Positions 1 through 25,564 of a stretch of DNA of 64,000 bases are shown in pieces. The notes beneath the pieces were generated by a model. That model was not told the origin of the DNA. It searched no databases and saw only the letters and a program-made list of their open reading frames with translations. This DNA comes from Acanthamoeba lenticulata (taxonomy: Eukaryota > Discosea > Longamoebia > Acanthamoebidae). The translations under genes and the position numbers were made by a program. Positions within the stretch are counted from its first letter, which is position 1. Every line of letters starts with the position of its first letter. The DNA lies in contig NAVB01000201.1 of the NCBI GenBank assembly GCA_002179805.1, positions 28,682-92,681 on the forward strand. Reading direction: 5' to 3'.

Positions 1-3000
1 AAGAGGGGAGAAAGTACCTGGAGCTCTCGCTTGAGCATGTCGTAGCCGGCCTCGAGCTGCACCTGGAACTCCTCCTGCTCCGGCTGGATGAGGGTCTTGT
101 TAAGCATGAGCGCGAACTGGCACAGCTTCGTGAACGAGACGATGGCCTCCTGCAACCTGTCCTCGTCCAACCCGTCCCCTCCCACCGTTGGTCCCACGAT
201 CTCGCCGGGGGCAAGGCGAAAGGGGGAGAAGAGAGGCTACCGAGCGACGTGGTGGGCCGGGAAGTCGGCGGTCTTGTCGAGGAAGATCTTGGCGATGGCC
301 AGCGGGCCGGCGTTGACGGTGACCAGCACGCTGCCCTGGAGCACCTGCTGGAGGGTCTTGGTGTTGGGCGGCGTGGTGTCCAGCTCCGTCCGCAGGGCGA
401 CGATGCGGCCCTCCACGAGCTCGATCGCCGTCTCGATCGGCTCCAGCACGATCTGGACGTTGGCCACGTTGATGTCGTCGTCGTTGTCAGCGATCAGCAG
501 ATGCACGTGAGGAAGAGAAGAGGCTTGAGAAAGAAAAGAAGAAGGACGAGGGACGTGCCTCCTTCTTGGAAATGACGGGCAGGCGGCTCTTGACGAAGGG
601 GAAGGCCTTGGCCGTGCGGAGGATGGTCTTGCGCTTGCACTGGTCGGCCAGATCGCCGTGCGCCTTCCCGCTCTTGGTGAAGGGGCTCTCAAAAATGAAC
701 TGGTCTACTCTCGCCCCCCCCCCCGTAAATATCGTGTTTAATAAAATATATAATTATTTTAAAAAAGAGTGTATAAATCCAAATATTAGCTTCAATTTAA
801 AGAAAGAACAGGGAAATACCGATGTGGAATTTGCGGTCCCAGAGGTTGGGGCGTTCGGCCAGCTGGGCCGGATCGAAGAACTCGGTGAGGGACACGACCT
901 GGAAGTAGCACACGTCGGGCTTGAGCTTGGTCAAATCCACGCTGATGTTGCCCAGCAGCTCCACCTTGTTTCCGAACTTTTGCGAGAACTGGCTCTGTTT
1001 CGTTTGCACTCTCACCATGGTCAGTCACGTGTGCTGATGGTGATGCTCGTGTTCGTGATGGTGGTGGAGAGGAACCTTGAGGCGCGTCGTGAAGTCGTTG
1101 AGGCGGACCGAGTCGTTCGCGCGATACACGAACTCCTTGCCCTCGAGATCGCGCCACTGCTTGCCGAAGAAGGCCACGCGGTAGTAGTTGCTGAAGAGGC
1201 GGCCCCTCTCCGCGTTCTGCGTCGTGCCACCCCCGCTGCATCAGCAAGGAATGCCAGGAATGCCAGGAATGCAGAGCACGAGCGTGCGGTCGTGCGACGC
1301 ACCGACTTGACGAGCGACTCGCAGACGACCTTGAGGTCGCGGAAGCACTCGCCCAGGAGGCCGTAGTCGCGCTCCTTCTGGTGGATGTTGATGACGTACT
1401 TGTAGATGTCGATCACCAGCTCGAACAGGTTGGCCTGCGCTCCGTCCAGTATCACCACACGCGCGTGAGTGCCAGCCACGGACGGCGCACGCGGAGAGGA
1501 ACACGCACGTTCTTGGCGATGGCGATAGCCTCCTTCAGCACGCGCGCGAGACCCTCCTCGGAGAACACCTTGGGGTTGTACATGCCCTCTTCGCCCTGCA
1601 CAAGCACGCGCCACGCGGAGGTGAGCACACGCGCGTGGGAACACACGCGCACGGGCACGAGCAGAGAAATGGCGTACGCCGACGTCGAGGGAGATGTTGG
1701 GGAGGCCGGACTCGGCCGAGATGTTGGGCGAGACCGGCGCAAAGGCGGCGTTGGTGGCCGGGATGCCCTCGGTCGTGCCCTTTTGCTTCGTCAGGAACTC
1801 GGAGATGAGGGCCGCCGCGTGCATCTTGCACTGCACCGCCTCGTCAAAGTTGCGTTGCTGCGATACCGTCCCCCACCCACAGATTAGCCAATCAGTCGCC
1901 GCCACGTCACGGTGGGCACGTTGGCACGGCCTCGCACGTACCTCGAGGTGGAAGTTGGCAAGGTTGTCGAGCCATGTGACGCGGAGATCGGGCGAGTCGG
2001 TGTAGCCGAGGGAGACTTGGTAGTAAAGGTCGCCCGTCATCTCGCGGTCGTAGGCGTAGTCGGCCATGTCGAGCGAGTGCTTGATCACCTCGAGCAGGCG
2101 CTTGCACAGGGCCTCGGTCTCGCCCTGGAGGTTGGTGTTGCGGACATCGCGCTTGGAGTAGGCCGTGACGGCGGCCAGCGAGGCCGTCAGGTAGGAGTAC
2201 TCCTTCACCGTGCCCGTCAGCCGCGAGACGGCGATGGTCGACTGCAGCCGCGTGCGCGCGATCGTCTTTGTCTCGGCGAAGTTTGTCTGCATTAAGTACA
2301 CAAAGCGTCAGCAAAATAAATAAAAAAAAAAAGGGAAAATATTAATATTATCATAAAAAGAATAAACGTCGACGAGCCGTGCCTTGATGAGGAGGTAGAA
2401 GAGGGCGGCGGCCTTGGCCCGGACGACCGCGTGGGGCAAGTTGCAGTGGCGCAGGATCTCGAAACAGAGGTCGCCGCAGTAGATCGTGTTGCCCCACCGG
2501 AACAGGGTCTGCGGGTAGGTGTGGATGAAGAAGCGCAGGGTGTCGAAGAGCGCCATCAAGAGCGACACGCTGGCCTCGCTCTGCAGCAGCAGGCCGATCG
2601 CCCTGAACAGGCATTCCTGTTGTATGACGTGGCGCCACGTCACACGACCACTACCAGGTTATTATCGGGCACGAGGAGCCAAGGCCAAGCTGGCGGGCAC
2701 GGACCATGTGCTCCTTGGTCTGCTCCTTGAGGTCCCAGTGGAAGTCGTGCATGAACTCCTCGACGACGTCGAGCACGACGAAGCCCAGCTCGCGCTTGAG
2801 GTGGGGCTCCTGGAAGGTCTGGATGGCGAGGCCCATCACCTGGAAGAGGCCCTTCACGTTCCGGAGCGCTTCCTTCTTCCACCACTGCCGCAGGAGCCGC
2901 GCGTGGTCGCAGTTCTTGACGATCCACATGAAGCAGACCAGCCAGTCTCGCCGCTCCTCGTCCCCCATCCCCTGCAGGATGCTCGCCTTCTCCAGCAGCT

Positions 3001-6000
3001 GCGCGGGTGCGCGCATCACCACCACAAGTTTAGCCGCCGATGTGCATGCGCGTGTGTGCGGTGCGTGTTCGTACGAGGAGGAGGTAGGGGAAGTAGATGC
3101 CGGCGACGCGCTGCTTGGCCGCCGGGTCCTGGTATCGTCGGTCGGCGTCGTGCTTCCACAGCAGCCATCGCAGCGTCGTGATTGCCTGATTATTTTTATT
3201 GATATAAAACAAGTCAGAACAAAATAATAGGAGAATAAATGAAATGAAATGATATGAAAAAAAAAAAAAAAAGTATGCGAATACGTGCCTCGGAGCGAAT
3301 GAGTTTATCGCGTGGAAGACAGGCGATGATCTCATGGATGACTGTGCCCGCCAGGAAGTGCGCCTTCCTGCAAGCCGCATGAACCATTTAGATCGAGATT
3401 GGCCACAAAAAACGAAAAGCGACGAAAAATGAAGTTTAGGGGGATGAGCACCAGAACTGGGCGGGGATGGCGGGGACCGAGACGATTCCGGGCGACACGG
3501 GCACGTTGAGAGGCACAAAGTGCTCGTAGTCGCACACGATCTTGAGAACATTGAACTTGAACTTTACCAGCACGGCCGAGTCGTTGGCCGGGCACAGCTT
3601 GGCCACATAGTCGTCGACCTGCAGGCGCGCGCAAGCGACGGGCCGGTCATTCACGTGATTCACGCGATGGCCGGAAGACGGGAGGCGCGCACCATGCCGA
3701 GCACGGCGCCGCGGTCCATGACGGGGAGGAGGTCCTTGAGGAAAAGACCGATGTTGCTGTTGAGGTCGGCCACGACCGGCGCGCACCAGGGCTCGCCGTT
3801 CCGGATGCCGCGCATGAGCAAGTGCACGAGCTTGGCCAGCTCGCCCACGAACTCGGCCGTGAAGTACTCTTTGCGCCGGCTGTCGTCGCCTGTATCGGCC
3901 CCCACGAGGACATTCGTGAGAACGCCATTGCAAAACTGACCAGCTCCCGCAACATGCAAGGGCGGGAGACTCGCGAGGAACGTACAGCGGAGGCCGGCCT
4001 GCTGGAGGGTGAGGAGCATGGACTTGACGATGGCCTCGAAGAAGAACCAGGCGAAGCGGGTCACCTCCGCCAGCACCGCGTTCTGAGCGACAGAAGGGCG
4101 TCAGAACAGGCGCGAGTGAAGGGGGAGGGGAGGACGAGTACCGTTTCGCGGAGAGCGGTGAGCCACTGGCGGACGAGGGCCTCGTGGAGGGGCACCTTGG
4201 CCGGCTTGGGCAGGTCGAGCATGTACTCCAGGTAGGACGTCAGGTTCGGGTTGCGCGTGCGTCGGCCGCTCACCATCGTCATCACTTCCACGCTGCGCAC
4301 ACCATCGCGGTCAAGTCAAATTTGTTTAACCAAAATGAACAAATATTCTAATATTTATTTGTTAATTTTTTTTTATGATTACTAATTTATAATCATGATT
4401 AAAGTACCTGTTGAGGAGAGTGGGAATGGCGAAGAAGGCGGCGCGAACGGCGCCCGGGGCCATGTTGCACATGACGTAGGCCATTTGATTGAGCAGGACC
4501 GGGAAGAACTGCACCTGCGCGCGGCCCGCGGCTTGCTTGAGCCCGTCGATGACCTTCTCGAGGAGCTCGTCGTTGCGCTCCGACGAGTAGTGCTTGAAGA
4601 AGGCGTGCAGGTGGGGATCCTGCGTGTAGACGGTCGACACGAGCTTCGTGCGGACCACGAACAGCGGCTTCCCGTTGTCCAGCCACTGCTCGCCATTCCA
4701 AGCGACACACGTCGACACATTAGCATTAGCATCTCGTTCCATCGACACCGCAGCACACACGCGCGGGGGCGGAACGCACCTGCGTGTTCTCCTCGACAGC
4801 ACTCGACCGGTACGAAGCCACCAGCGCGCCGGCCACGGGCAGGCGCTGCGGCTCGTCCGCCAGCACTCTGTGCCATCCATCCCATGAGTGTGAGCAAATG
4901 AGCAAGAGAGATGCTCCAGCGAGGCGGGAGGGGAGGGGGGCACGCACCGCCCGTCGGCGTCGAGGAGGGGCAAGTAGGCGTAGGCGCACACAGACTGTGG
5001 CGTGGCACACACGCACACCGCACACACGCGGCCCGGAATGAAAAGAATGAAGACGCCGTTAATGGTGTGAACGCGAAGAAAGAACGAAGGCGAGCAAGTG
5101 GGAGGTTGACCTCGGTCTGGGACTTGGGTTTGACGCCGACGTTGAAGAAGGTGAAGAAGAGGTGGTGCTGGGGTCCGAGCTGGCTGGGCAGCTCGACTTT
5201 GATCTCGTGGTAGTACACGGGCTTGCGATCGTTAATCCGAATCGCTGTCTCGAACTGCGTCACGAGCTTCCCGCGGCTGCTCCCGCCATAAATCGCCTGC
5301 ACGTGCGTGCGCGTGAGTGCGCGTACAACTGTGCATCAGGCGAGGACGGCGTACGGGGAGGCCGCTGGCGTGGGGGTCAGCATCAGACTCGCGCAGCTGG
5401 ACGCGGACGCCGATGTTCTTGCACTCGCCCTTGCCCTTCCACTTGCTCAAATTCACCGAATCTATGTACACGTATCTGCCCCGTCGCGTGTGAGCCACAA
5501 AATATAACAATAAGAATCTAATTTTTTTTTAAAAAAAAACAAATATAAAAAAACAAGGGAAAAGGTGTCTTACAGGTGATTGACGTAGTCGACGGCGGGC
5601 AGGGGCTCCTGGATCTCTTGCGCAAACCAGGCCACCTCCTTGATGAACTGGTGACGCATGCACGGGTGAGATCACATTCATTCATTCCACACATTCCATT
5701 CCTTCCATGGGGGACGTACGTCAGAGCCGGCGGGGTGAACGGGCAGGTAGGACGGGTCGATGCGGCCGGGCAGGCGATCGACATCGGCCTCGTTCAGGAG
5801 GGTGGCCTCCATCTTGAAGTAGCCCGGGATGAACTTGGCCTGTGTTTGTGTGCGCGCGCGTGTGCGGAGTCGCGTGACAGCCCGTAAGTCTTGTGCACGC
5901 GCCACACAAGACAGACTGAACGGGCACACGCACCTTGGTGTCCTTCTCGCGCTTGCGGATGAGGTCGAACAGCTTGTCGTCGCTCTGGTCATCCTTGATG

Positions 6001-7891
6001 CGCGTCAGGTTCTGCATCACCACCTCGCGCGGCAGCACAAAATTGCCCTTCTCGTCGAACACCTGTGCGGCGATGATGAGCGTCAGCCATCCATTGATCT
6101 TCGGGAAGCGCCGAGGCAGAGCAGGGCCGAACCTGGATGGCTGACCAGGCGAACGGCTGTGTGTACTTGGCCAGGCGCTCGCACGAGGCCTCAAGCTCTT
6201 TGATGAACTTGGCCCGCTCCTTCTGCTTGATCTGCACCGCCCAGTATTAAAATAGTATTCAGTATTTAAAATAAAACAAAATAAAATAAAAATGATGTAA
6301 AATAAAAAAAATTGGCAAACTGAATGTCGACGCCGTACGGTAGCGTGTTTGAAGTAGGGGTCGGCCGCGGCGTCGGGGTCGCCCCGCGCGATCTGCTCCA
6401 CGCGCAGCACGAGGTAGAGGCTCGACGAGGGTTGCGGCAGGCCCACGCGGAACAGCGCGCGTGGCGTGCGGGTCTCGGCGTCCACCTTCTCCCCGTCGCC
6501 CTGATGACACACGCACACACGGTCAGTCTCGAGTTGCCGGGCGAGGGCAAGGCCCAAGCCCATGGGGCGCGGCGTACGAGGCGGTGGGGGATGAGCTTGA
6601 CGAGCGGATCGGTGTTGAGGTCAAAGTGGAACGTCTCCGAGACGCGCTGTCGGGACTGCACATCGACCAGCACCAGCGAGCAGAAGAAGGGCTCGACCTT
6701 GCCCAGCGCGAACGACAGCTCCTTGCACTCCACCAAAAACTCCACTCCCCTTCACGGCGTGAAGAGAGAAATAGAATGAATTATACATCCTTGAAAAATA
6801 AATAAATAAAAACTCAACAAAACTACACATTTAAACGAACCGCTTTTGGGGGAAGGGCGCGATCTGCGGCCGAGCGTCGGTCGGGTCGAGCTTCTCGGGC
6901 CGAGCCAGGGTGTAGGCCTCGAACACATTGCACCGGTTTTGCAGCTGCCGAACAAAATACATCACGTGCAACACGCGAGCTCCGGTCAGCCTCACGAGCA
7001 GAGCTTCCAATGAGGGAGGGAGGAGGGACACGCACGCGCAGGCCGGCCTCCTTCTTCCTGGCCTCGGGGCTGGGCGCCACGAGGATGTCAGTGTCCAGCT
7101 CGGACTTGCTCGCCGCCTTCTCGCTCGTCGACTCCTCTGTCGGCGCGGCACAGACGCGGGTGAGTGCTACGATGGCAGCCCGCGAGCGAGCGAGAGAAAG
7201 GAAACAAAGGAAAAGAGAGAAAAGAGGGAGCAAGAGACCAGGCGGCAAATTGCCCAGGGTGAGCGGCGTGGGCTTGGTCTTGCCGTCGAACTCGAGGTAG
7301 TTGTGCGTCACTGTGACCCAATCGCGCGCAAACACGCCGAGCGCGTCGGCTACGAACAGCTGCGGCTTCGATCGGGGGCTCTGCGCCACCTCCTGTGCGA
7401 CAAGGACGAGGTGAGCATGACATCAGCTCAGCCGACCGCGCTACGCGCCGCTTTTACGCAAATAAAAAAAATATTCGCGGCTTTTAGACCAAAAAGTCGG
7501 CCAATAAAATGAATAAATAAAAAGAGCAATAAATCATTGAGATTGAGGATGAAGAGGGACTAAGTACGGGCAGGGCTGAGTGGAGGGTGCGGCGGACGCG
7601 CTTGGTGTGGTCGATGCTGAGGTCGTCCTTGGGAAAGGTGAGGAGGACCACTGAGGCCTGGTCTGCCGTAGCGGCCTTGTGCAGGGTGGGCGCACTCAGC
7701 CTCTCCTCGAGGTCGGCGCACCCCGGACGACCGCTGTCGGGCAGCCCGTTCGCCGAGGAGGAGGTCAGAGTGGAAGACGCTGCAGACTCTGACGCAGGGG
7801 AGGACGGGGCGCTCGCCCCCGAGATTCGTCGCGGAGAGGCGGAGTCCATGCTGCTGGACAGCATTTTTTCCTTCCCCTTCAGACGTTCCAT
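1..7891 (-). CDS. DOCK-family (DOCK-C/Zir-like) Rho GTPase exchange factor, multi-exon, 3' end outside window
   Basis: Likely a guanine nucleotide exchange factor for Rac/Cdc42-type GTPases, acting at membranes to drive actin remodelling. The start is the ATG at 7891, opening MERLKGKEKML; the open frame further upstream begins only with GTG. Conserved blocks in order: a DOCK-C N-terminal part (FHFDLNTDPL near 6640; PFAWSAIQV near 6140); a C2-like DHR-1 domain (VYYHEIKVELPSQLGPQHH at 5220-5160, then a YLPLLDADGR block near 4970); a middle helical region (FAWFFFEAIVKSML near 4040; PVMDRGAVLGMV near 3715); and the catalytic DHR-2 domain from about 2300 to the window edge (SPDLRVTWLDNLANFH near 1990; FESPFTKSGKAHGDL near 680; LQQVLQGSVLVTVNAGPL near 330). 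The last visible exon stops at 18, just before a GTAC donor, so the C-terminus lies outside. About 15-20 introns interrupt it. The family call is firm; DOCK-C rather than DOCK-D is less so. Confidence 0.9.
2625..2642. repeat. perfect 18-bp palindrome TGACGTGGCGCCACGTCA in a DOCK intron
   Basis: Perfect dyad symmetry. In the minus-strand gene it lies about nine bases before the likely acceptor (ATACAACAG then GAATGCC). Nearly the same sequence sits at 24571-24588 at another gene's splice acceptor. Confidence 0.85.
5841..5866. repeat. alternating purine-pyrimidine TG/CG tract in a DOCK intron
   Basis: An almost unbroken run of alternating TG and CG around GTGTGCGCGCGCGTGTGCG. Comparable tracts occur in other introns of the same gene (for example 1614-1662, 4988-5032 and 5299-5330). 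Confidence 0.75.
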
Positions 7892-8085
7892 CTTGGCTCA
7901 AGTGTATGAACAACTGCTCGAGCTGAGGCCCCTGTTGCCTCTGCCGTTGTTGCTGGGTGGGAAAATTAAACTGGTCGGCCTGTTTCTGTTTCAAATTGCG
8001 TTTGGCAAACACTCCGCAAATTGAGAACACAATGGATTAATTTGTTAATTTTTACAATGCCAAAGAAAAATAAAAAGGCCACAAA
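7892..8085. promoter_or_regulatory. divergent promoter region between the DOCK and OXNAD1-like genes
   Basis: These 194 bp separate the two outward-facing start codons at 7891 (-) and 8086 (+), so both promoters must lie here or inside the genes. The right half is AT-rich. No TATA box or other defined element is convincing. Confidence 0.45.
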
Positions 8086-9336
8086 ATGAGCGAGATTACA
8101 ACGCATCTGCAGCGAACAGTAGGATTGAAAAGGCAGGCAGCGCTGGTGGCTGCACGAATCGTTTCCATCTCGACCGAGACACCCACAGTGCGTCGTTTCT
8201 TGCTGCAGCCTCAGCTGGCACACCACGACGGTGAGCCCCTCGCAACCACACACCACTCCGAGGCTCAAGCTACGTTTGACTTTCGTCCCGGCCAGTGGCT
8301 TGACTGTCACTTGCCCGGCGTGGACGTACGTGGGTCCACCACGTGCGACGCCGCAACCAAACTGTTCATTGACGTCAAGATGTCCCTGCAGGTCGTGGGC
8401 GGCTATTCCATCTGCTCAGACAGGAAGCAGTTGGAGAAGGAGGGCGTCATCGAGCTAGCCGTGAAATACTCAACCCACCCACCGGCCCTATGGATGCACA
8501 CGCAAGCGAAGGAAGGTGCAGGCTCCCTTCTTCTTGCCATGTCGGCCGTGGCCGTTATTGAACGCAGCGGTGGATCCAACAGGCGACGAGATCCACATTC
8601 GCGTGGGAGGTGAATTCGTGATGGACGATGAAACCATCAGGAACAAGAAGATCCTGTTCGTCGCAGGTGGCGTGGGCATCAATCCACTCATCTCAATGAT
8701 GCGCGAGCTGCACGACACCAACGACTTCGACCTCCCAGGTTCGTTATCGAGGACGCTTGCGTCTTTCTTCACCCTGTGTTCTCAAGGACAGGTGTGGTGT
8801 TCCTAGGTCGGCGGGCGGTGCTGCTCTACTCGGCTGCGCAGAAAGCCGAGCTGGCGTTCCGCAAGGAGATCCAAGAGCTCACTCGTACGACATCTGATCG
8901 ACCGTCTCACTTCTTCTTCTTCTTCTTCTTCTCTGCCTTGTGGCATTCTTGTCATGAGCTCATGCTTTGATTCAACCTGCGCACAGGAGTGGACTCGCGG
9001 CTTCTGGCTCGATTCTTTGTCACCAAGGAAGCCATCAAACCCGATGAGGACGCAGGTGCGTCATCGCTGCTTCGTGTTGCACATGCTTCCCTCCATCTTC
9101 GTCCTTCCTTCTCAACTTCATGGCGTGTAGGGCTCGAGGCTGGCCGAATAGACGTCCCGCGACTACGATCAGCGCTCGAAGAGCTCGTGGGAGAGGCAAC
9201 GCCACCACAGAGCTTGGCCTTGGCAAACGTGGAGGTGTTCGTCTGCGGGCCCCGACCCATGATCGATGACTGCATGTCCAACCTCACAGCTCTTGGCCTG
9301 GCTGAGAGGCAGGTCCACCACGAGTGTTGGTGGTGA
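8086..9336 (+). CDS. OXNAD1: OXNAD1-like ferredoxin-reductase-type NAD(P)H/FAD oxidoreductase
   Basis: A predicted flavin-dependent oxidoreductase of the ferredoxin-NADP reductase superfamily; the physiological acceptor is unknown. Human OXNAD1 is thought to be mitochondrial, but no clear presequence is visible here. The ATG at 8086 begins MSEITTHLQRTVGL. The FAD-binding barrel is marked by FRPGQWLDCHLPG and GGYSICS. The NAD-binding half carries GGVGINPLISMMREL, AVLLYSAAQKAELAFRKEI and VFVCGPRPMIDD. The chain ends HHECWW, in keeping with an aromatic end facing the flavin. About five short introns split it, each clear from loss of frame between conserved blocks. The DOCK gene lies divergently upstream. 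Confidence 0.88.
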
Positions 9337-13724: not shown

Positions 13725-13868
13725 CTCTTCGGCACGGGTACAAAAGAGCGGGAAACGGGCCGGCAAGAGAAATGACTCATGCATTTTCTCTTTTATTTCA
13801 ATTGTTTCTTCTCTTGGCCGTTTACTTTTTCTCTGCATACCCGAGCATCAACAACAGTAACTCAAAAG

Positions 13869-14948
13869 ATGTCGAGGGCGGCCGATATGCAGTGCCACCG
13901 GTGTGGCCGTATGGGACACACTGCCAAAAACTGTTCACGCCCGCCGGATTGCTTTCGGTGTGGGCAGTCGCACTATGCGCGCGATTGCCCATCAGCCCCG
14001 CGACCAGCATGCTATAAATGTGGACGCACAACGCACTTTGCCCGCGATTGTCCCGTGGGCATCAATTGCCACAAATGCGGGCAGCAAGGCCATTTTGCCA
14101 AGGATTGCACTGTGGAGCAGCGAAGGCGAGATCGTATGATTCCCTCCTCCGGGGAGGGATGCATTTTTGTCATTCATCCTTATTTTCTTTGGCTGATGTG
14201 ATTCAACGTCTAACCTTCCCCTTGGCCTACAGGGAGGCCCATGGCGCCCGAGATCACCGCCAGTCAGCTGCCGCCGGTGATATGCTCAGCTTGCAACCGA
14301 CGAGGCCACGACGCCTCGCGCTGCACCTCGGGCGAGATACAAGAGTTTGATGACTTTAAAGGTGCGTCGTCGCGGCGCTCTCTCTCTCTCTCTCTTTCTC
14401 TCTTGCACAACTCGCTCTCCACGCCTCGGCTCCGTGCCGTGCTGTGCCGCGCTTGTGCTCTGGCTCACTCGCCTTGGGCTCCTGCTCTCCTCCCCGTCAC
14501 AGACTCGCTCGTGCTCCCCGACCTGCTGGGCCAGACCACCAAGCGGAAGCAGCCTGTGGTGGCGACGCCAGACGAGGATAAGAAGACGGACAAGAAGCGA
14601 AAGGTCACCACGCAGATCCTGATCATCTCCAAGAAGAAGGGCGTGGCGCCCGAGCCCAGCGCGCCCAAGCAGGAGGAAGAGACCAACAACGAGGGAACAG
14701 AAGAAGAGCAGGGAAGTGGTGGAGGCCTCTTCTCTCTCTTGGCCGACTACGGGGACAGCGACGACGACGACGAGGAGCAAGCGGTCACAACACCAACTAC
14801 AAGCACAGCGGCCGACGATGCGGCCCGAGCACAGGCCAACGGCTCGCGAGAGGGCGAGGAGGAGAATGGAGGGGACAACGCCAGCAGCAGTAGTGGTGCT
14901 CACGAGGCGAGCCAGCCCGCCGCTGAGGTGGAGGTTGGAGCCAAGTAA
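13869..14948 (+). CDS. five-knuckle CCHC zinc-finger protein (CNBP/GIS2-like) with acidic tail
   Basis: A putative single-stranded nucleic-acid-binding protein. From the ATG at 13869, four knuckles follow in one exon: CHRCGRMGHTAKNC, CFRCGQSHYARDC, CYKCGRTTHFARDC and CHKCGQQGHFAKDC. A fifth (CSACNRRGHDASRC) sits in exon 2 and a basic/acidic tail in exon 3. Knuckle 2 is one residue shorter than CX2CX4HX4C and knuckle 3 lacks the usual Gly before His. The tail has a likely NLS (KKTDKKRKV), then LFSLLADYGDSDDDDEEQ and Ser/Glu-rich sequence to the stop at 14948. Intron 1 is about 14134-14230. Intron 2 (about 14361-14502) contains a CT-rich polypyrimidine run. Confidence 0.82.
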
Positions 14949-15177
14949 GAAGCAACAACAACAACAATAAAACGTGGTCTACACACAACCGTTCCTCTTG
15001 TTCTCTTTTCACACGCCAACTGGCGACAAGACAACCTGGCGTTGCGGGGCGGCAGCTTGTCGCCGGTTCCCCCGCTTTTACCGAAAGGCGCTTCTCACCA
15101 GCCCACAGAACCGTTCTGGACCAGGCGCTGGAGGAAGAGGCAGCAGCCCACAGAAATCACAACACATAGGCTCAAAG

Positions 15178-16577
15178 ATGGATGCAACAAAGGAAGTGTG
15201 GCGCTCTCTGTCTGAAAAGTGGACTGGGACACTCACCAGCAAGCAAGAATGGCCTGAAACGGATTCAGCAGCAGCATCTTCTGTCTCTTCTCCTTCAGCT
15301 GCGTGGGATGCGCAACAGCCCATGTCGTTCAAACCATCGTCGGCAGCCTTAACAGCGCCTTCCCTCCTTTCAAGCATCAAATCTACAGCCGCACACTCGC
15401 TGACAGCAGTCAAGATGGCAGCGGCCACAGTCACTGGGTCGGCCTACTCGCGGACCTCAGTCGTCGAGGGCGAGATCATCAAGGCTGGCTACGTGATCAG
15501 CATCTCCGGCTGGCAAGCCATGTGGCCTGGCCTCAACGTGCTCGAGCTCACAACAACTGGCCTTCGCCTGCTCGTGCGGCCTCTCATAGCAAATCAATCA
15601 ATGCGCTACTTGGGAGTAGTACTGACCACTACTTTACACACAGAATGAAGAAAGGCAAGAGGTCAAGGCGGACATGCGGCTGGCGGCCGTGGCTGAGGTA
15701 AGCCTCCATGAGCACAACCCCATCCAGTTCATCGTGCGCGGCTCAAGCACCTGGACCCTCGAGTGCCGCGACGTGCGCGACGCCGCCGACTGGGTCGCCA
15801 CCATCCAGTACGTGCGGCTCGCATGTGACATGAGCGTGTGTCGAGGATTGACCCACCCGGGGGCGCCTTTGCAGGAACGCCATGAACGAGCACCACTGCG
15901 GCCTCGATGGCGCGAAGCCGATCAGCCCGCTGGCTATGCGGCGCTCACGCGCGTCCACGGCCCCGGCCCCAGTCATGCCTCCGCGCCGCTCCAGCACCGC
16001 CGCCGTCGCCACTGGAGGCTCTGGGTTGGGTTCCACTTCGCCGACGTGGTCGTCCCCGTCGTCGTCGCCGCCCGCCAAATCGTCACTTTCGATGTCGTCG
16101 CTCCCGTCGATCGACGCGCCGCTGGAAATGAGCTTCGCCTTTGACGCCCAACGCGACGCCGCAACAACGACCCAAGCCAGTCCAGACCTGTTGTTGGGCA
16201 GCGGGTCGGAGCCGTCTGGGTCCATAAAGATCGCGCTGCCGCTGTCTCCTTCGTCGGCATCGACAACCGGCAAGAGGCAGCGGGCCCACACCTACGGCGT
16301 AGCTGCGCCGATGACGCCCACCAGCGGCTCGGCGTCCCGCCTGCGCTCGCCCACCATCTCGCGGACGACCTCGACCGAGCGGAGAGCCACCGCGCCCACA
16401 GCTCCCTTGTCACGAGACGCACAGACTGCGTGGGACCCATTTGGCGAGGCCTTTGCCTCGCCGCTGTCTCCGCTCGCGCCCGCTTCCTCGTCGTCGCAGC
16501 ACGTGCCCGCAGTGCCTTCGCCTGCAAGCCCGGTGGCTCGCTCGGACGACTCCCCCCTGATTGATTTCTTGAGCTGA
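15178..16577 (+). CDS. PH-domain protein with Ser/Pro-rich tail and endocytic-type short motifs
   Basis: From the ATG at 15178 a Ser/Ala-rich leader precedes a pleckstrin-homology-like domain split by introns: VVEGEIIKAGYVISISGWQ, LNVLELTTTGLRLL, then HNPIQFIVRGSSTWTLEC and RDAADWVATIQ, whose last helix carries the invariant PH Trp. The final exon is a long disordered Ser/Thr/Pro/Ala-rich tail. Near its end are WDPFGEAF, a DPF motif of the kind that binds the AP-2 appendage, and DDSPLIDFLS, which resembles a clathrin-box-like LIDFL. These short motifs are seen; their function is inferred. The PH domain would suggest phosphoinositide or membrane binding. Confidence 0.72.
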
Positions 16578-16929
16578 TGAAACGGTTGGTCCTCTACTAC
16601 GCGATGATGAATCGGTGCAGCAAAGACTTGTTGTTGGCAGTTTCTGGGAGGTTGAGCAGCACGCCAAGAAGACCAACTTGTCGACGTGCTGGTTGTTTCA
16701 GTCGACCCTAATCGTGACGTGGTCAGATAGGTGTCATCATCGAAGTTAGGGACAGTGAGCAGATGGCAGAAGAAGCCTTGTGGTGGAGCAGTTCTTCCCC
16801 ATGGCTTCCCATATAGCCTTCTGCAGAAATCCAACAGTTCCATGAAAGGAAATCCACGACATGGCGTAGGGCTGGCGTGCTCACTCCCAGCATCGTCTTC
16901 GTAGCTGTAGCATATTTTCTTTTATTCTT
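16578..16929. other. intergenic, no feature seen
   Basis: About 350 bp between the PH-domain stop and the end of the retroelement homology. Short open frames exist on both strands but none has recognisable protein character. It may hold the PH-gene 3' UTR and the lost 3' part of the element. Confidence 0.5.
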
Positions 16930-18649
16930 TTTTACCGCCACATCCTTTCCTTCCTTCCGTACAAAGACTCTCGCCAGAAACGCAGGGCGCCACTAGCACC
17001 GGCACTTCCGCCGCTACTCCAACAGATGGACTGCCCCGAATCGGTCCCCAGCACTGCCCACATCTCCTTGCGGTGAATTCGCCACTCGCGCTCCTCCTCC
17101 GAGAAAGCTCCACGCGCCTCCTGGCAGCACTCCGGCAAGCATCCGCCCCAGCCATAGCCAGAAGCGTTGGTCTGGACCGTCAGCACCCTCGAGGGGCGCC
17201 AGATAGGCGCCCCCTGCCGCCGCCGCATATTTGCCCGCAGGAAACGCAAGTCCGCCCTCGCCTCGCTTGCCGCAACGCGTAGACCGCGCCCGCCACTCAG
17301 GCCAGCTCCCTCCGCGTTCTCCACGGCTGATCGTTTTCGGCGCACAGCTCCTCGGCCTTCCGCAGCTTGTCCTCCGGCGCCTTGAACAAGCCGTTCTTCA
17401 GGTCGACCACGAGGCCCAGCACCTCCGCCTCCTGCGTAGGCTCCCAGCAGCCCTTGGTGGGCTCGCGCACCCAGCCCAGCTGCTCCAAGAGAGGGGCTAT
17501 CAGCCTGTCGCGCACTAGGAGCAGCTCCTCCTTCGTGGCTGCCAGCACCACGAAGTCGTCGAGGTAGGCCGTCACGAAGACGCCCTTCTCCCGCCACGCC
17601 CGGAGCATGCAGCGCACTATCTTGGTGAATGCCCATGGCGAGAGCCGTAGGCCGAACGGCAAAACCCGGTACCGGAACCAGCGCCTGCCCACTTGAAAGC
17701 CTAGCATGGCCCGCGTCTCCTCCTCCATGGACATGTGGTGGTAGCCTTGCGCGAGATTGAAGGTGATCATCCACCACCCTGTCCCCGCAAGCCTTGCCAG
17801 TGAGGCCAACCCCTTGAACTTGCACCGCCGCTCCGCCAAGGCCGAGTTGATCGCCCGCATGTCGATCACCAGGCGCCCTTCTTCGCCACCAAGAACACCG
17901 GCGAGATGTACTTGATGCCTGGAGGCCGCTCGTCGCCCTCGCCCATGGACTCCACCGCCTGGTGGCGCAGCAGGCGGTCGAGCTCCTTCTTGAGCCACTC
18001 CACCTGCTCGCCGTTGAACTCGTAGACCCGCGTGTCCTCCGTGACCAACCGGATCAACATTGCTGGCAAGCCCTGAGCAATCCACGCCAGCACCTGCTCG
18101 GTGGCCCCGATCTTCTTCCATTCCTCCACTCACTGCTTGAGCCGTCCCACCACGCAAATCTCCTCCCCCAGCACCGCCGGGCACGCGTGTCTGTCTTCCA
18201 CGTTCCCATTGGGTGCCACTGGCTCCACTAGCACTGGCTGCTCCACCACGCGCTGCACCTCCTCGTGCTGCACCTCCTTGTGCGCCATCTTGCCGCCTAC
18301 CACCACGCACTCCTGCTCCTCGTTCCTCCCAACCACGCCCACCACGTCCTCCACTTGCACCACCACGGCCTCCTCCACTGGCGGCACTATTGCTGGCCTG
18401 CCCCAAAGCGCTTGGGGCAGTCTCGCACAAAGTGGCCCACGTCGCCGCACAGGAAGCAGTTCCGGCTGTCCTGGCCGCCGCGCTGAGCTGCCGATCCTCT
18501 GCCGCTCCTGCTTGTCGGGTGGGCAGCCACTTGGGGGAAGGCGGCAGCTGGGCTTGACCCCCACCCTGCAGTGGCACCCTCCTGCATCATGCCCCAGCCG
18601 GCCAGGCTGGTCAATCCCCACCTGCTGGCGCAGCCCACCTCCATTGCCT

Positions 18650-18659
18650 GGGGGGGGGG
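18650..18659. repeat. ten-base G run at a composition boundary
   Basis: An uninterrupted run of ten G on the plus strand inside the gag/zinc-knuckle part of the retroelement. It sits within about 100 bp of the switch from ordinary CpG content (17-18.6 kb) to almost none (18.7-21.18 kb). Confidence 0.7.
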
Positions 18660-18749
18660 CTGTAGCTGGGACCCCCAGCCCCCACTCCAGCTGCTCACAC
18701 TGTCCCTTTGGCGAAACCCCTGTGGCTGCCAGCCCTCCTTGGACACCAA

Positions 18750-19402
18750 CTTCCTTGCGCTGGCAATCTCATCAGCAAACTCATCTAAAAAACTGCCCAC
18801 ATCACATTTCAGCTTCACCACCACCAACCAGCTCTCCCACTCACCAGTGACAACCTGCACTCCTCACCACTTAATCTCATCCAATGCTTCCTTGACCACC
18901 TTGCACAACTCAACAAGATCATCCACATCTGCACCAGACAGGATTCACCCCACTCACACAATGAAGTCATGTTGCATGACATTTCAAACTTGATCTCCAG
19001 CCACATCTTCTCTACTTCCATTTGCCATTTGAGTTGATTGTATGAAGTTGTCAGCTGCCCCACTTCTGCCAAGAGAGACTTCCTTGTACTGGCAATCTTG
19101 TTGGTGAACTTGTTTAAAAAACTGCCTGTGTTGTGTTTCAGCTTTGCCGCCACTGACCAGCTCTCCTGCTTGCCAGTGACAACCTGTGCTCCTTGCTGCT
19201 TGATCTCATCCAATGCTTCCTTGACTGCCTTGTGCAACTTGATGAGATTGTCCATGTCTGTGCTGGACAGGATTTGCCCCATTTGCATGATGAAGTTGTA
19301 CTTGTACTGGTTGTGTGATATTTCAAACTTAATCTCCAGCCACATCTTCTCTGCCTCTGTTTGCTACTTGAGCTGATTGTATAAAGTTGTCAACTTCTGC
19401 CA
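18750..19402. repeat. two-copy tandem direct repeat, about 329 bp unit, in retroelement gag
   Basis: Copy 1 is about 18750-19078 and copy 2 about 19079-19402. They align throughout; copy 2 lacks about 8 bp near its end. On the minus strand both encode related segments (ESWLVVVKLKCDVGSFLDEF against ESWSVAAKLKHNTGSFLNKF), so the duplication is of coding gag sequence. Differences are mostly CA in copy 1 against TG in copy 2 at the same place. Confidence 0.88.
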
Positions 19403-20262
19403 AAAAAAACTGATCTACAACTTGGTCACTCTCCATAGCCTTGCACAAGAGCTCCCCAAGCTGCTTGGCCTGGCTGGTGGAAAAGACTTCTTGCAATTGC
19501 CTCTGATTGCACTGTTTTTACACCTTTGCCAGGCTGTCAGCTTGCCCTTGCTTGATGTCCTCCTTTTCAGGCTCCTCCTCTTTGCTATCCATGTCTTCCT
19601 CCTTGTTGAACTCCTTTTTGTCCTCCTCCTCCTTGTCCTCCTGGTCACCCAGGCTATCTTGTCACTGTTTCTTTGCCCCCTGCCTACCAGGGGCCCTTGG
19701 TGCCACCCTGCCCTGACCACTAGCTGCAAAGGCGCCCCCAGTAGCATCCAGCTGCTTGTCTTTCCATATTGGATTTTTGCCTTCTGCAGCATGCCCAGTA
19801 TCTCCAAATTGATGGTCAGCAGCTGGATATGTGATGCTTCCTGCTGCCTTGTTGATGTGGTAACCACTGCAGGTGTAGATGTGTTGCCATCCTTTAGGGC
19901 ATCCTCTGGTTGCATAACTGTGCAGATGTGCTGTCCTATCAGGTGCATATAGTTGAGGCCCCTCTCAACCACTCATGTGACCATTCTCCTCAACTTTGTG
20001 CCTGCACCAGCTCCACTCCCATCAGCATCAGCTCTCTTTCCCAAGGCAGTCACTACCTTTCATGTGTTTTTTGCTGAAAGGTTCAATGACCTCATGATGC
20101 TTCTCATGCCCTCTGGGGAGAGTGAAGAACCTTAACAGCTTTCCATGGGCCTGGGTAAGGACCCCAGTGTGGGCCAGCAATTTTGTACAGAAATTAATCT
20201 TGTGAAGTTGTAATTTTAGTGCTTCAGCCACATGCAATATAATATACTATTTTGATTTGAAT

Positions 20263-21180
20263 TTAGAGGTTGGTGGCAATATTGGTGTCAGAGAGAGCAG
20301 AGACAGTGTACAAATCCTGACTCTCAAGGAGCATGAATGAGACACCGCCACCCATGGAGATGTGTATGACTTTGTCCATGGTGCCTTGTTGTTCCACCAG
20401 TGTGGCCATGTCACTACCACCTGCCACAGAAAACAACATCATCAGCCTTTAAAACAGTCATCTATGAACTCACCAACATAGTGCTGTTTTTGGTGGCCTT
20501 GAAGATGGTTGAAAAGGGGTCTTTGGAGCCTTTAGCAAAAGCTGGGAACTCAAAGATACTGGTAGGTCCATTCCAGACAATGGTTTTAGCATGGAAGACC
20601 ACCTTGCAGAAGAGTTCATAGCTCTTGGGGCCAATATTGAGGCCCTGCCAGCTGTTGGGGATGCCCTCAGTATTGGTTGCAGCACCCACCTGGGTGTCCT
20701 TGCTGAACTTGTTGGTGGTCATGTTGTCCATGGGGAAGTGGAGCTTGATGCTGTTTTTCTTGGCCTTGGCCATGATGTCTTTATCTTGGCGCTGCCTTTG
20801 TCAATGATGGACTTGCTGATCTTGACACCATAGACCACTTTCCTTCCTTGTCCACACTGGAGCCCTCCTCCTCAATGTGGAAGCGCAAGTTCTCCAGCAG
20901 GACAACCTCGCCTGTTGTGGCAAGGCCCAGCTGAGCATGTTAGTCCTCTGTTGACACAAAAGCATGCAGCAGTTGATGGGAGGGTCATACCACACTTGAG
21001 GTTGGCACAAGCCTGCTCAACCTAGGGGCCCACACAATCCTCTAGGAACTTGATGTCCCTTCAAAAAAAAAGGGACAAAGATAGATTAACAGTAGATCAG
21101 TGCAAAAACAAGATTGGTCATACTTGTCAAGGAACTTGCTGAAGACTTTAGCAACAGGGTAGAGTTGGAGCACCTATTCT
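20263..21180 (-). pseudogene. phosphoglycerate kinase pseudogene (non-processed, internally deleted)
   Basis: Minus-strand similarity to PGK in order: SLHPVAKVFSKFLDK, then after an intron RDIKFLEDCVGP, VEQACANLKCG, VVLLENLRFHIEEEG; later DIMAKAKKN, GIPNSWQGLNIGPKS, AKTIVWNGPTSIFEFPAFA and ISMGGGVSFMLLES near the end. Breaks: an in-frame TAG after DCVGP, a frame change near 20780, and loss of roughly the middle 100 or more residues between FHIEEEG and the segment around DIMAKAKKN. The N-terminal part upstream of 21180 is missing. Two intron-like gaps with GT and AG ends are retained (about 20421-20473 and about 21062-21127), so it arose by DNA duplication and not from mRNA. It shares the near absence of CpG with the adjoining retroelement. 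Confidence 0.85.
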
Positions 21181-21333
21181 CCACTCCAACTTTCCGGCAG
21201 ATTCTGCTGATGCATCACCCAAGCACCCTTGACTCGGCGCAGGTGGTGCACGCAACGACGAGGAACGCGTCTTTTCACGCTGCGTGAAAGAAACATACAA
21301 GAGGTTGTTTTGGGGAAGGCACGCTGCACCACA

Positions 21334-21618
21334 TCATCTGCGAGTGCGGCCCCGCGGTGTGGTCGCCCTGTGCGTGATGGGCAGCTCCTCCTCGCCCTCG
21401 TCCTCCTCCTCTTGCTCGCTCTGGGGCTTCTGCTTGCTGCTGCCCTTGCCCTTGCTCCCGGAGGCCTTGCTGCCGGCCTTGGCCTTGGTGGCCCGCGTCT
21501 TCGTCGCTTTCTCTTCTTCTTCTTCTTCTTCCTCTTCCTCCTCTTGCTCTGACTTGTCCTCAGCTTCCTCCTCTTCTTGCGCTTTTCGGCTGCGGGAGGT
21601 ACAAAATTTATTCCACAT
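21334..21618 (-). CDS. Glu-rich and Lys-rich low-complexity fragment, doubtful gene or exon
   Basis: An open frame from an ATG at 21618 encodes a long Glu run, then KATKTRATKAKAGSKASG and GSKGKGSSKQKPQ, another acidic stretch, and ends RTTPRGRTRR-like. The first codons lie over an AT-rich stretch ending CCTCCCGCAG, which looks like a 3' splice site, so this may be a last exon of a minus-strand gene instead of an independent one. The reverse strand over the same bases is also open because of the (GAR)n composition. It abuts the end of the PGK pseudogene, and a gene tail cut by the duplication is possible. Confidence 0.3.
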   Translation of the reverse strand: MWNKFCTSRSRKAQEEEEAEDKSEQEEEEEEEEEEEKATKTRATKAKAGSKASGSKGKGSSKQKPQSEQEEEDEGEEELPITHRATTPRGRTRR

Positions 21619-21667
21619 TTTCGCAAATTAAAAATGTACATAACAAGAGCACGGTGGACACCGAGGG

Positions 21668-22915
21668 TCAACCGTCCTTCTTCCACCGCAACCTGACGCG
21701 CCCACCCTTTCTCGTGCTCTGTTCAAGCGCCTCCAGGCTATGGAACGTGAAGTTGCCGCTGGGCTTGTCTCGCCACCCCATCTCGGAGCCTGGGTGGTCG
21801 CTCCTTTGTTCATCTCCGGCCATCACGCTGCCTCTCCTCTTCTTGTGCTTACGTTCGGGGCTGGTCTCTCCTTCCTCCACGCCCTTCTTCCGGCGTGGTG
21901 TCCTTGCTCGAGCTGGCGGACAATCGAGTTCTTTCGGCTTTCGCACGCCGTTGTCGGGTTCATCCCGTGGTGGTGGGCGGTGAAGATGATCCGCCCAGGT
22001 GGGGGAAGAGCCAGACTGCGCCGTTGCCGGGGCCTGCTGCATAGACGGACAGAAAGTGGGCGAGGGAGGAAGTGGGAGTGGTGGGTGGTGGTGAGGAGGA
22101 TTGAGGGGCAATGGTGGGTGGTGCGCGTGAGGGCCATTGTGATGCGCGTGGCCACCATAGGGGTTCGGAGCGGCGTAGTAACAGGCGGCGAGGGAGAGGT
22201 AGTAGAACAGCGCGGCGCTGTCGTGGGGCGTCTGAGGCAGCTGCACCCCTGCTGCAGAAGCGAGAGCGGAGATCGGGTTGATGGCCGAGGTGGTGGTATT
22301 CAGCTCTAAGGGAGAAGGAAACGATGGAGGAGGAAACGATGGTGAAGGAGCCGGGGCAGACAGGAAAGGCAGATGTCCTCCACGAGGAGGAGCGGGGAAG
22401 TTGATTCGCTCTGGATCACTCGACGTGAAGGAAGATGGCGAAGGGAGGAGCCGACGAGGGTGTGGGGTTGGTATCGTAGGAGGACGTGGTGGCTCTCGCC
22501 AATGAATCAACGGTGGCCCAGGAAATGATGAAGCTGCGTACGCAGCAGCTTCTTCTCGCAGGTCGCCTGGAGATGGACTTTCGGACGAGCTCACGTCATG
22601 TGTCTTCGCTGCCTTGATGAGCCGAGGCGGAGGCCTCGACCGACGCTCATCTTCACCCCCTGCGCTAGCGGCAGCGTATGGTGGGTGGTGAACGTCTTGA
22701 TTAGGCCCTGCGGCTGTGACCTCGGCGCTGACTGTGGGTTGTTCGCTTGATACGACCCCCATGGAAGATGTGGTCTGATCTTCTTCATCTTCTTCGTCCT
22801 CCCAAGGCCTGTGGTGCCGGCGAAGCCGCCGAGGTGGAGGAGGTGCAGGGGTGGGCAGTGGACCATTTGTTCTGGACGCGTGAGGAGTTGTCTTGTTCGT
22901 GTGGTGGAGCTGCAT
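21668..22915 (-). CDS. Pro/His-rich low-complexity protein, unknown function
   Basis: A 415-codon open frame from the ATG at 22915 (MQLHHTNKTTPHASR). Features in order: Pro-rich PTPAPPPPRRLRRHH, acidic WEDEEDEEDQ, then long Pro/Ser-rich stretches with PPPSFPSP-like repeats, a short hydrophobic centre (SALASAAGVQLPQT and ALFYYLSLAACYYAAP), a His/Pro block (HAHHNGPHAHHPPLPL), basic ARTPRRKKG and ERKHKKRRGS, and the end SLEALEQSTRKGGRVRLRWKKDG. No domain is recognised. Length, a real ATG and protein-like composition support it. An intron near the C-terminus cannot be excluded. Confidence 0.5.
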   Translation of the reverse strand: MQLHHTNKTTPHASRTNGPLPTPAPPPPRRLRRHHRPWEDEEDEEDQTTSSMGVVSSEQPTVSAEVTAAGPNQDVHHPPYAAASAGGEDERRSRPPPRLIKAAKTHDVSSSESPSPGDLREEAAAYAASSFPGPPLIHWREPPRPPTIPTPHPRRLLPSPSSFTSSDPERINFPAPPRGGHLPFLSAPAPSPSFPPPSFPSPLELNTTTSAINPISALASAAGVQLPQTPHDSAALFYYLSLAACYYAAPNPYGGHAHHNGPHAHHPPLPLNPPHHHPPLPLPPSPTFCPSMQQAPATAQSGSSPTWADHLHRPPPRDEPDNGVRKPKELDCPPARARTPRRKKGVEEGETSPERKHKKRRGSVMAGDEQRSDHPGSEMGWRDKPSGNFTFHSLEALEQSTRKGGRVRLRWKKDG

Positions 22916-23769
22916 GGCGTGGAAACGCTGAGACTGACGGCTGGCCGGGAGCTAGTTGGGGGACTGGCGGAATCAGCCATGCAGAATATGGCCGCGCAGC
23001 ACCGACCAGTAGGCAAAAAGATCACGTTGGCCAATTGCGCGATTTAGCCCTGTTGCCTTTAATGGTTTCCGACGTAACCGCACGCTGCCATCTCGCCTCC
23101 TGCACCTGAGTGCACGTTTAGGAGTCATAGTGAACGACCTCCTCAACCTTGCCTTTTCTTACGACCAGAATCTCTTGTTTGTGTGGTCTTCTGTATGCAG
23201 CGGCTGAAACACCTTCACAAGGCACCACCCTCAGGGGCACGCGCTGGCACCAGCCCAACACTCCGTAACAAGCACGTTCGCCGCGGCAGGTCACGCTGCC
23301 TCCCCGGTGACGCCAAGTTATGCTTGGTATTTTGTTTTATTTTATTTCATTCTATTTTCCGGAGTGTCTGCTGCGGCGACTGTGCGACGCAGGACCACCT
23401 CTCATTCTTCCGCCATCGCACAGGTGAAGGTCTGCCGCGACTCTCTTGAGGGGCGCTCGTGGACACGAGGCTAGATTCCCTGCCAAATAGCTCGGATATT
23501 CAGGTCGGATAGACCACAGTGCCAGGCCCGTGTGTGGTTGGTTAATGGGAGTAGTGCTGTACTCCTCCCGACCCAGGAAGAAGAAGACGACAACGAAGCT
23601 AACGTGGCCACGACACGGGCGTACCCAGTGGTACTGTCGCGTGTTGGAAAGTTGTTCGTCTGCAAAGAAGAAAAGAGAAAGGTGAGGCAAGCATAGGAGA
23701 CACGCTTCAATTCCTCCTCCCCCCCTCTTCTTCCGCTTGAAACAACCTTGCGACTAGAAGAACAAGAAG
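22916..23769. other. intergenic region between divergent genes
   Basis: About 850 bp between the start of the Pro/His-rich gene (-) and the RA-domain gene (+). Minus-strand frames at 23352-23860 and 22591-23034 are open but lack recognisable character. It probably holds both promoters and perhaps non-coding first exons. Nothing specific is seen. Confidence 0.45.
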
Positions 23770-25564
23770 ATGGCGACAAGATTGTTGGGCTCCATGCCCT
23801 CCTCTTCCACCCTGGGTTCTTCGGCCTCTGCAATGGCGAGGCCTCATGCCGACAGCGCACCTCCCGCCCTGCGCTCCTTCCGCTCAGACACAGACGTAGC
23901 CAACCAGGTACGCCTCAAATGACTTCCTCAGACGTCCCAAGCCTTCATTCTGTTCTACCCCCCCCCCACCACCCGCTTTCGTTCTTTTGTGTGGGTCATT
24001 CCATGCATTCCTGACGTGCGCCTTTGGTAGAGGATGGTGGTGCGGATCTACTTCTCTGATGGGGCGTTCAAGAGGTACACGACCCACCCTTCTCCCCAAT
24101 TCTGCTACAACACGACTTGTGGCTGAGACTGAGGTGGGTTCTAACCGGGGAGCAGCATCATGATCAACGGCCTCACGACGGCCAACGAGGCATGCCTCAT
24201 GTTCGCCGAGAAGGTGCGGATGGAGCGCTTCCAGAAGAGCTTCCAGCTGAAGGAAGTCACGCCCTCTGTCCGTACGTAGCGCAGTTCTCCCGCCCTTTTC
24301 GGTGGTGTCGGCGATCTCCTCACCTCGTGCGATTGCGGTCGATTGCGCGTAGAGCGCATGGTCGACCCGAACGAGCGCCCGTTCGAGATCGTGCACCGGT
24401 GGATCAATGAGGGCTTCAAGCTCTCCATGGACGAGAAGTGGCGCTTCGTGTTCACCTTCACGCAGGAGGCCCAAAACCGCCTCCTCCGCAAGACCAAGCG
24501 CCTCCTCTTCTCGCAGGTGTGTTCCCTTCCCTTCCCTTCCCCCAAGTCACATATCGGCTCACGGCTATGATGACATGGCGCCACGTCAGCTCCAAAGCGA
24601 GCTCAAGCAGCAGCTCAAGAGCCAGCCGGCCTCGCGGGCGCCCCCGCCGCCGCCCAAGCGGCTCGCCCCCTCGTCCTCGGCGACGACCCGCCATGACGAG
24701 CCCCCGGACTGCGGCCGCGCGGCGGCCTTGCCAGCCTCCCCGCGCATGCACGCGTCCACCTCTTCCTCGTCCTCTTCATCACCATCACCATCATCATCAT
24801 CTTCTTCTTATTCGCTTCTCGAGTCGTCGACATCGACTCCCGTCCGGCGGGACGAGCTCGAGGCCGACCAGGCGGCTTCGTCGTCGACACCCTTTTTTGT
24901 GTCGACGTCGCCCAGACCGCAGGCGTCGACACCGCCGCAGCCGCAGGCCGGCGGCGCCACGGGAACGCTCCGCGGCGGCTTCTCGTCGCTGCCGCCGCTC
25001 TCGACCTCGCCGCGCATGGCCCCGCAGGTGCCCTCGCCCCAGTCGGTCCCGCCCCAGCCCGCGCCGGTGGTGAGCTCGGTTCGAGGCCGGCGCCAAGCGC
25101 GGCCGTCGCCGCTGATGCTGGCCTCGTTCAACATCGACAGCGAGGCCCAGCTGGCCGCGGCCGAGACGCAGTACAACCTGGAATCGACCAGCAAGCTGGC
25201 CTCGGCCTACACCCCGGCCTCGCTCGCGGTCGATCCACCGGCGGCTTCAGTCGAGTTCGGGCTGGGCGACTTGCCGCCGCCGCCGGCGTCGATGCTCCCG
25301 CCGCCGCCTGTGCCCATGATGATGAAGATGCCGACGATGGAAGCCGTGCCGGGGACCGACCGGGACAGCTACCTGTCGTCCTCGTCCTACGAGTCGGAGG
25401 AGGAGCGCGAGGGCGAGGACGAGCTCGTGGCGATGCTCGTGCAGTCGACCCTGAAGGACAGCCAGGTGCGCGGGATGCCCCTGCGTGACTGCTCCGAGCA
25501 GATGATGAACAACCTCGACGACGCGCTGGCCATGCTCGCCAAGCTCGAGTTCGACCTCGGCTAG
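23770..25564 (+). CDS. Ras-association (RA) domain protein with MRL/Grb7-like RA region and Pro-rich tail
   Basis: The ATG at 23770 gives a Ser/Ala-rich leader (MATRLLGSMPSSSTLGSS). After an intron beginning GTACGCC comes a ubiquitin-like RA domain: MVVRIYFSDGAFKR, IMINGLTTANEACLMFAEKV, then ERMVDPNERPFEIVHRW, which resembles the RA regions of Mig10/RIAM/lamellipodin and Grb7/10/14. The next block (DEKWRFVFTFTQEAQNRLL, LRKTKRLLFSQ) is helical. The last large exon is disordered, with Ser runs, PPPPPK and LPPPPVPMM polyproline tracts of the Ena/VASP- or profilin-binding kind, and ends in an acidic amphipathic helix (NNLDDALAMLAKLEFDLG). The PH domain of animal MRL proteins is not seen. It may link Ras-type GTPases to actin; that role is inference. 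Confidence 0.72.
24571..24588. repeat. near-palindrome TGACATGGCGCCACGTCA at a 3' splice site
   Basis: Eighteen bases with dyad symmetry except one position. The last intron of the RA-domain gene appears to end within it (CACGTCAG then CTCC). A perfect version of the same sequence occurs at 2625-2642. Confidence 0.7.

Follow-up and report, generated by a model that had tools for sequence, protein, structure and literature searches.

The closest described counterparts of the sequence reported here are the RIP and RIP-like mutation of fungi and the CpG methylation of Acanthamoeba castellanii, and our account of them follows the accessible portions of the papers cited. About 91.9% of the C>T clusters left by RIP in Neurospora are strand-exclusive, and clusters confined to one strand are a hallmark of the process (PMC7296669). 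RIP can be triggered by closely placed repeat pairs of at least 155 bp (PMC4858203), favours CpA in Neurospora and has been described as a fungal-specific defence (PMC2621366). RID has likewise been reported as restricted to fungi (PMC12344493, PMC13297926). In the Ty1 Copia-like repeats of the basidiomycete Microbotryum, the change of CpG to TpG is strongly favoured, with TpCpG as the preferred context (PMC2621366). In A. castellanii, repressive CpG 5-methylcytosine (5mC) has been reported on retroelements and silent genes, together with DNMT1 and DNMT3 and a 29.5% reduction of global mCG by decitabine, in an article whose main text contains neither the string "repeat-induced" nor "hypermut" (PMC12344493). 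A preliminary description of the DNA studied here considered such silencing little described in this lineage; for A. castellanii, CpG methylation of this kind is already published. The titles and abstract openings searched, a set beyond which most subscription papers and preprints lie, held no report of RIP or hypermutation in Acanthamoeba.

We analysed a stretch of 64,000 nucleotides from Acanthamoeba lenticulata (assembly GCA_002179805.1, contig NAVB01000201.1, positions 28,682 to 92,681 of the forward strand), hereafter the window, and searched the assembly to which it belongs (48.5 Mb, 1,825 contigs). The window holds a tract that was probably produced by C>T hypermutation aimed mainly at CpG and acting largely on one strand at a time, with a RIP-like outcome. 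A block at 18721-21180 (2,460 bp) had been described as almost without CpG in otherwise CpG-rich DNA, with TG and CA correspondingly common, and all three observations hold. Seven CpGs were counted against 139.4 expected from base composition (Poisson probability of seven or fewer, 6e-50), the CpG observed/expected ratio (O/E) is 0.05 in the block and 1.00 over the whole window, and the O/E values of TG and CA are 1.74 and 1.50. The tract is somewhat longer than first noted, CpG being sparse past 18542 and dense again from 21195-21235. The tract has sharp edges and reaches from within a retroelement-bearing insertion across what is left of a phosphoglycerate kinase (PGK) gene. Alignment identifies contig C906, from the assembly searched, as a second haplotype of the locus, a term that here covers allele and segmental duplicate, which are inseparable from contigs alone. 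The features of the locus are as follows.

13799..16754, unstranded: CpG-normal flank common to C906 (98.7% identity; C906 7021-10000 matches 16754-13799)
17042..19979, unstranded: retroelement-bearing stretch, unmatched on C906, its low-coordinate part CpG-normal and its high-coordinate part hypermutated
17297..18577, minus strand: open reading frame (ORF) that matches the reverse transcriptase domain RVT_1 (E 3e-15; genome-wide match C183:46179-46511)
18543..21194 (approximate ends), unstranded: CpG-depleted, C>T-hypermutated tract, from CpG positions (O/E 0.00-0.21 in 250-bp windows over 18501-21250)
19980..21175, minus strand: PGK gene remnant, hypermutated relative to C906 (alignment to C906 3122-4436)
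21218..24062, unstranded: CpG-normal flank common to C906 (95.2% identity; C906 1-2885 matches 24062-21218)

The block consists of part of the retroelement-bearing insertion and what remains of a second copy of PGK. It had been taken as dead sequence made up of retroelement gag and a PGK pseudogene; PGK sequence (PF00162) was recovered in it and a retroelement (RVT_1) beside and partly in it, and the "gag" label found no confirmation, neither of the two internal ORFs tested having a Pfam match at E 0.01. Genome-wide, PF00162 has six matches, confined to C906 and the block. The two in the block lie on the minus strand at 20320-20800; one holds one TGA and two TAG codons, and the other falls below the cut-off. 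Among the four on C906, one contains two internal stops, which an intron may explain, and the profile is unmatched over positions 107-190. The C906 stretch homologous to the remnant has a CpG O/E of 0.99, and C906 is the only relative of the PGK part in this genome. Foreign DNA of native low CpG, an alternative raised at the outset, is rejected by this value for the PGK part; the retroelement part is a different matter, as no CpG-normal relative of its hypermutated stretch was found in the genome. In the pairwise comparisons, we removed known self-overlaps and any alignment that was shorter than 150 bp or exceeded 99.5% identity, and the relatives named are among 60 of 139 alignments plus the low-CpG ones. 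Separately, about 2.5 kb of C906 (L023, 4437-6926) is missing from the window, and its ORF pieces resemble, by eye, a SAM domain and a P-loop ATPase.

The kind of change is best seen in the PGK remnant. Under a filter that treats transitions alike, it differs from C906 by 137 C>T/G>A changes, three T>C/A>G changes and seven transversions in 983 columns; another 142 poorly aligned ungapped columns outside these hold 14 C>T/G>A changes, five reverse transitions and 20 transversions. According to a C>T-favouring filter, 83 of the 86 CpGs are changed, to TG (48), CA (26), TA (8) or CT (1). By the same filter, C>T is found at 92/175 cytosines in CpG, 28/129 in CpT, 7/122 in CpA and 9/173 in CpC, which amounts to 44 changes outside CpG, and indels are present as well. 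Nearly all CpGs are thus gone yet little else is altered, because divergence other than C>T is 10/983, near or above that of the flanks (21/2,816 for 21218-24062 and 4/2,953 for 13799-16754).

One reading of this pattern is spontaneous deamination of 5mC in silenced DNA over a long time, every site and strand being hit independently. It is consistent with CpG as by far the main context, and CpG 5mC is on record for retroelements and silent genes of A. castellanii, in the accessible portion of the report (PMC12344493). The loss of 83 of 86 CpGs against merely 10 other changes in 983 columns argues against it, as do the strands, considered below. Another reading is an artefact in which methylated CpGs are misread strand by strand during sequencing or assembly. 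Such misreading would leave TG or CA according to strand and no indels, the picture seen in the young element pairs described below, but the PGK tract carries stops, indels and C>T changes outside CpG relative to C906. Moreover, the young element copies show no gap column in 12,083, unlike unpolished nanopore contigs, and we regard the artefact as most improbable.

The lost CpGs of the locus are coordinated by strand, a feature absent from the preliminary description. It is evident in a tandem repeat of 329 bp in the retroelement part and in two runs within the PGK remnant.

18749..19080, unstranded: tandem repeat copy 1, reading CA at 28 CA/TG sites (C>T on the bottom strand), from self-alignment
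19078..19411, unstranded: tandem repeat copy 2, reading TG at these 28 sites (C>T on the top strand), from self-alignment
20695..20952, unstranded: run of lost PGK CpGs, 19 changed to TG and 2 to CA, from the site list
20963..21128, unstranded: run of lost PGK CpGs, 13 changed to CA and 1 to TG, from the site list

At all 28 sites of the tandem repeat, copy 1 reads CA and copy 2 TG, with no site in the reverse arrangement (p 7e-9); a few single-base differences between the copies run in either direction. In the global alignment of the PGK remnant, the order of TG and CA is clustered (22 runs against 34.7 expected, p 0.0008), and 51 of 70 neighbouring lost CpGs fell on the same strand (37.6 expected, p 0.0002). 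This clustering depends on the alignment, since the longer BLAST piece gives p 0.32 or 0.12 and the shorter p 0.017. Additionally, CpG was converted to TA, with both strands hit, eight times where independent strands predict 22.4 (Fisher p 9e-12). Such scarcity of second-strand hits agrees with the prediction for a substrate that must be CpG. Independent deamination predicts independent strands, and plain 5mC decay is therefore a poor fit to the coordination seen in the tandem repeat, in PGK and in the pooled retroelement copies, so that we consider it unlikely.

Strand coordination with CpG as the main context could also come from lesion segregation, in which unrepaired 5mC lesions accumulate during dormancy (cysts) and replication parts the strands, no dedicated enzyme being involved. 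However, the tandem repeat, with one strand changed per copy at 28/28 sites, would require near-complete conversion in one round. Deamination of 5mC in double-stranded DNA is far too slow for near-complete conversion within decades, and we give lesion segregation little credence.

The same behaviour was sought in retroelement copies found at 16 places by an RVT_1 search. Among them, L028 is of LTR type and carries domains for protease, RNase H and integrase, and L026 shows an endonuclease match below the cut-off. We pooled 14 of 17 derived-copy sets from PGK and five retroelement pairs, six comparisons in all, leaving out three sets with fewer than four sites and the old pair L034/L039. In this pool, 268 of 368 neighbouring lost CpGs were changed on the same strand, against 220.2 expected, and none of 5,000 within-set shuffles reached 268. 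With L034/L039 and the C906 flank added, the count becomes 328 of 482 (283.3 expected), and here too none of 5,000 shuffles reached it. The old pair itself shows no coordination (40/75 against 37.0; 17/30 against 15.9; at mirror sites, 15 runs where 18.2 are expected, p 0.16), and its apparent independence is what spontaneous deamination predicts. Coordination is also lacking in one direction of L029/L031 (4/11 against 5.0), in the L038-derived sites (2/5) and in the C906 flank (3/9). The case for coordination rests on the pool, the C644 pair and the tandem repeat, because the individual sets mostly give p values of 0.005-0.25; the sets are not fully independent, as the elements were picked by one domain. 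Two low-CpG spots of an arbitrary sample, L016 and L021, yielded no usable pair, one being without a relative and the other having too few sites.

On contig C644, one retroelement is present twice, at 711-4115 (L033) and 5494-8898 (L035), with 4.8 kb between the positions, and one copy is heavily mutated at CpG, chiefly on one strand. The closest named relative seen for an ORF of this element is a reverse transcriptase of A. castellanii Neff (61% identity over 31%). Among 3,402 ungapped columns, the copies differ at 122, by a transition in 121 cases, with CG>TG at 85 sites and CG>CA at 11 (p 3e-15). C>T affects 96/719 CpG cytosines, 6/426 in CpA and 0/461 in CpT, the total outside CpG being 7/1,544. 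Changes outside CpG are more frequent in L037 (CpA 21/374, CpC 8/374, CpT 9/262). A C>T surplus at CpT was observed in the PGK part (19985-21170; 28/129) and is absent from the C644 pair. Codon selection as the origin of the strand bias in the C644 pair was rejected: in the reverse transcriptase frame, the 3,402 columns contain 80 nonsynonymous and 39 synonymous changes and one new stop. The remaining young alignments likewise have more nonsynonymous than synonymous changes (43:24, 21:13, 32:11 and 25:8). Across the young retroelement pairs (12,083 columns in five alignments of four pairs), we counted 313 transitions, seven transversions and no gap columns. The control pairs (two DNMT2-like loci and two C906 flanks) gave 56 transitions, 32 transversions and 165 gap columns.

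An AID/APOBEC-type cytidine deaminase acting on single-stranded DNA or retroelement cDNA would likewise leave strand-coordinated clusters. The C644 pair shows mostly G>A in the sense strand of the element (the reverse transcriptase lies on the minus strand), and the genome has ten matches to the deaminase fold PF00383. However, both strands are affected within one element and in PGK, and the expected preference for a 5' neighbour is not consistent: on the top strand of L035, the changed fractions are 15/54 after A, 27/119 after C, 17/80 after G and 26/106 after T, and the other pairs have no common direction. This inconsistency, which spontaneous deamination would accommodate, and the small number of changes outside CpG in the C644 pair favour methylated CpG over an AID/APOBEC motif as the target, although other pairs show more such changes. 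A search with APOBEC_N carries no weight here, having matched nowhere, controls included. We judge an AID/APOBEC-type origin very unlikely.

The genome-wide picture bears on the proposal that A. lenticulata methylates, or once methylated, CpG in repeats or inactive DNA. A median CpG O/E below 0.8 was found at 11 of 16 RVT_1 loci (with about 1.5 kb on each side included) against one of 16 arbitrarily sampled stretches, 15 of which are at 0.86 or above. This small sample comes from 20 requested regions, 17 of which exist in the assembly, one of the 17 being the deliberately chosen C906. Among 300-bp windows of the sampled stretches, the chosen C906 included, 7 of 486 fall below 0.4. CpG depletion of the retroelements is patchy, as L028 (1.09), L030 (1.04) and L033 (1.03) are near 1, an outcome that the preliminary description had itself named as counting against its proposal. 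PF00145 matched at four places, one of them DNMT1 and the rest DNMT2-like, with the C399 locus classed through the near-identical C71. An SRA domain is also present. The DNMT2-like loci L003 (C71) and L004 (C399) are 97.6% identical and may be haplotypes of each other; the third lies on C1262. The four PF00145 matches, which come from an exon-by-exon search that can miss genes, include neither RID nor DNMT3, and an ADD_DNMT3 search matched nowhere, controls included. The part of the proposal that concerns CpG loss directed at repeats, with most other DNA spared, is supported by the counts at RVT_1 loci and by the presence of DNMT1 and SRA. Simple 5mC decay as its cause fails on the strand-coordinated, nearly pure C>T change with little other divergence.

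The tract and its relatives thus show change that is nearly all C>T, prefers CpG and is coordinated by strand, the coordination being present in the pool of other retroelement copies as well. We infer a RIP-like defence. Its substrate would be 5-methylcytosine laid down by the DNMT1/SRA system, and conversion would be an enzymatic, processive step acting on one strand, so that the outcome would resemble that of fungal CpG-type RIP. A possible trigger is the short tandem repeat inside the block. Were this 329-bp repeat to undergo slipped pairing, single-stranded DNA would be left on the bottom strand in copy 1 and on the top strand in copy 2, and these are the strands found mutated, an arrangement that arises by chance half the time. 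The hypermutated DNA takes in part of the insertion and the adjoining PGK remnant, and the C906 haplotype retains CpG-normal PGK sequence. Repeat targeting of the PGK part would need spreading, since C906 is its only relative. A fuller and more tentative proposal, which we hold possible but not probable, is an independently evolved amoebozoan RIP-like mutator that has a DNMT1-type CpG mark, is triggered by repeats or retroelements and converts CpG to TpG on one strand, with spill destroying a neighbouring metabolic gene copy.

Compared with RIP in Neurospora crassa, the locus and the young pairs share dense C>T/G>A clusters and, in part, their confinement to one strand, which is absent from L034/L039. 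A paper by Watters and others reportedly also deals with RIP and strands. The difference lies in context, CpG being favoured in PGK and the C644 pair in place of CpA, and in RID, which is fungal and was not found among the PF00145 matches of this genome; for these two reasons, we do not class the tract as a member of RIP. Fungal RIP, which takes place in the premeiotic phase of the sexual cycle, targets duplicated DNA, and here the tandem repeat and retroelement copies are affected, whereas the PGK part is matched on C906 alone. The mutation described in Microbotryum agrees in its favoured change, CpG to TpG in retroelement repeats, but, according to the accessible portion of the report, has a TpCpG preference with no consistent equivalent here, and it is fungal, not amoebozoan (PMC2621366). 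DNMT1 is shared with A. castellanii, whereas the DNMT3 reported there, in the accessible portion of that paper, was not detected among the matches here (PMC12344493). The restriction to CpG expected of plain 5mC deamination is approached by the C644 pair, with L037 and the CpT changes of PGK deviating from it; the independent strands it predicts are at odds with the tandem repeat, PGK and the pooled sets, L034/L039 being an exception. If true, a strand-coordinated, CpG-directed counterpart in an amoeba would point to more than one evolutionary origin of heritable mutation in silenced DNA, and it would stand beside a DNMT1/SRA methylation system, with RID undetected. In addition, counting strand runs among lost CpGs offers a sequence-only test by which, in other genomes that methylate their DNA, active hypermutation can be told apart from slow 5mC decay.

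Elsewhere in the window, the only other 500-bp interval with CpG O/E below 0.6 is 55001-55500, which is AT-rich (GC 0.27) and has a single CpG (O/E 0.11); TG and CA each occur 36 times in 54981-55560. A protein search with one ORF of the window gave three distant matches, none supplying a name. Another ORF is 59% identical to Balamuthia Cactin over 63% and up to 87-89% identical to unnamed metagenome proteins. At 38573-42748, long overlapping ORFs contain stretches with about 57-66% self-similarity in GC-rich, internally repetitive DNA.
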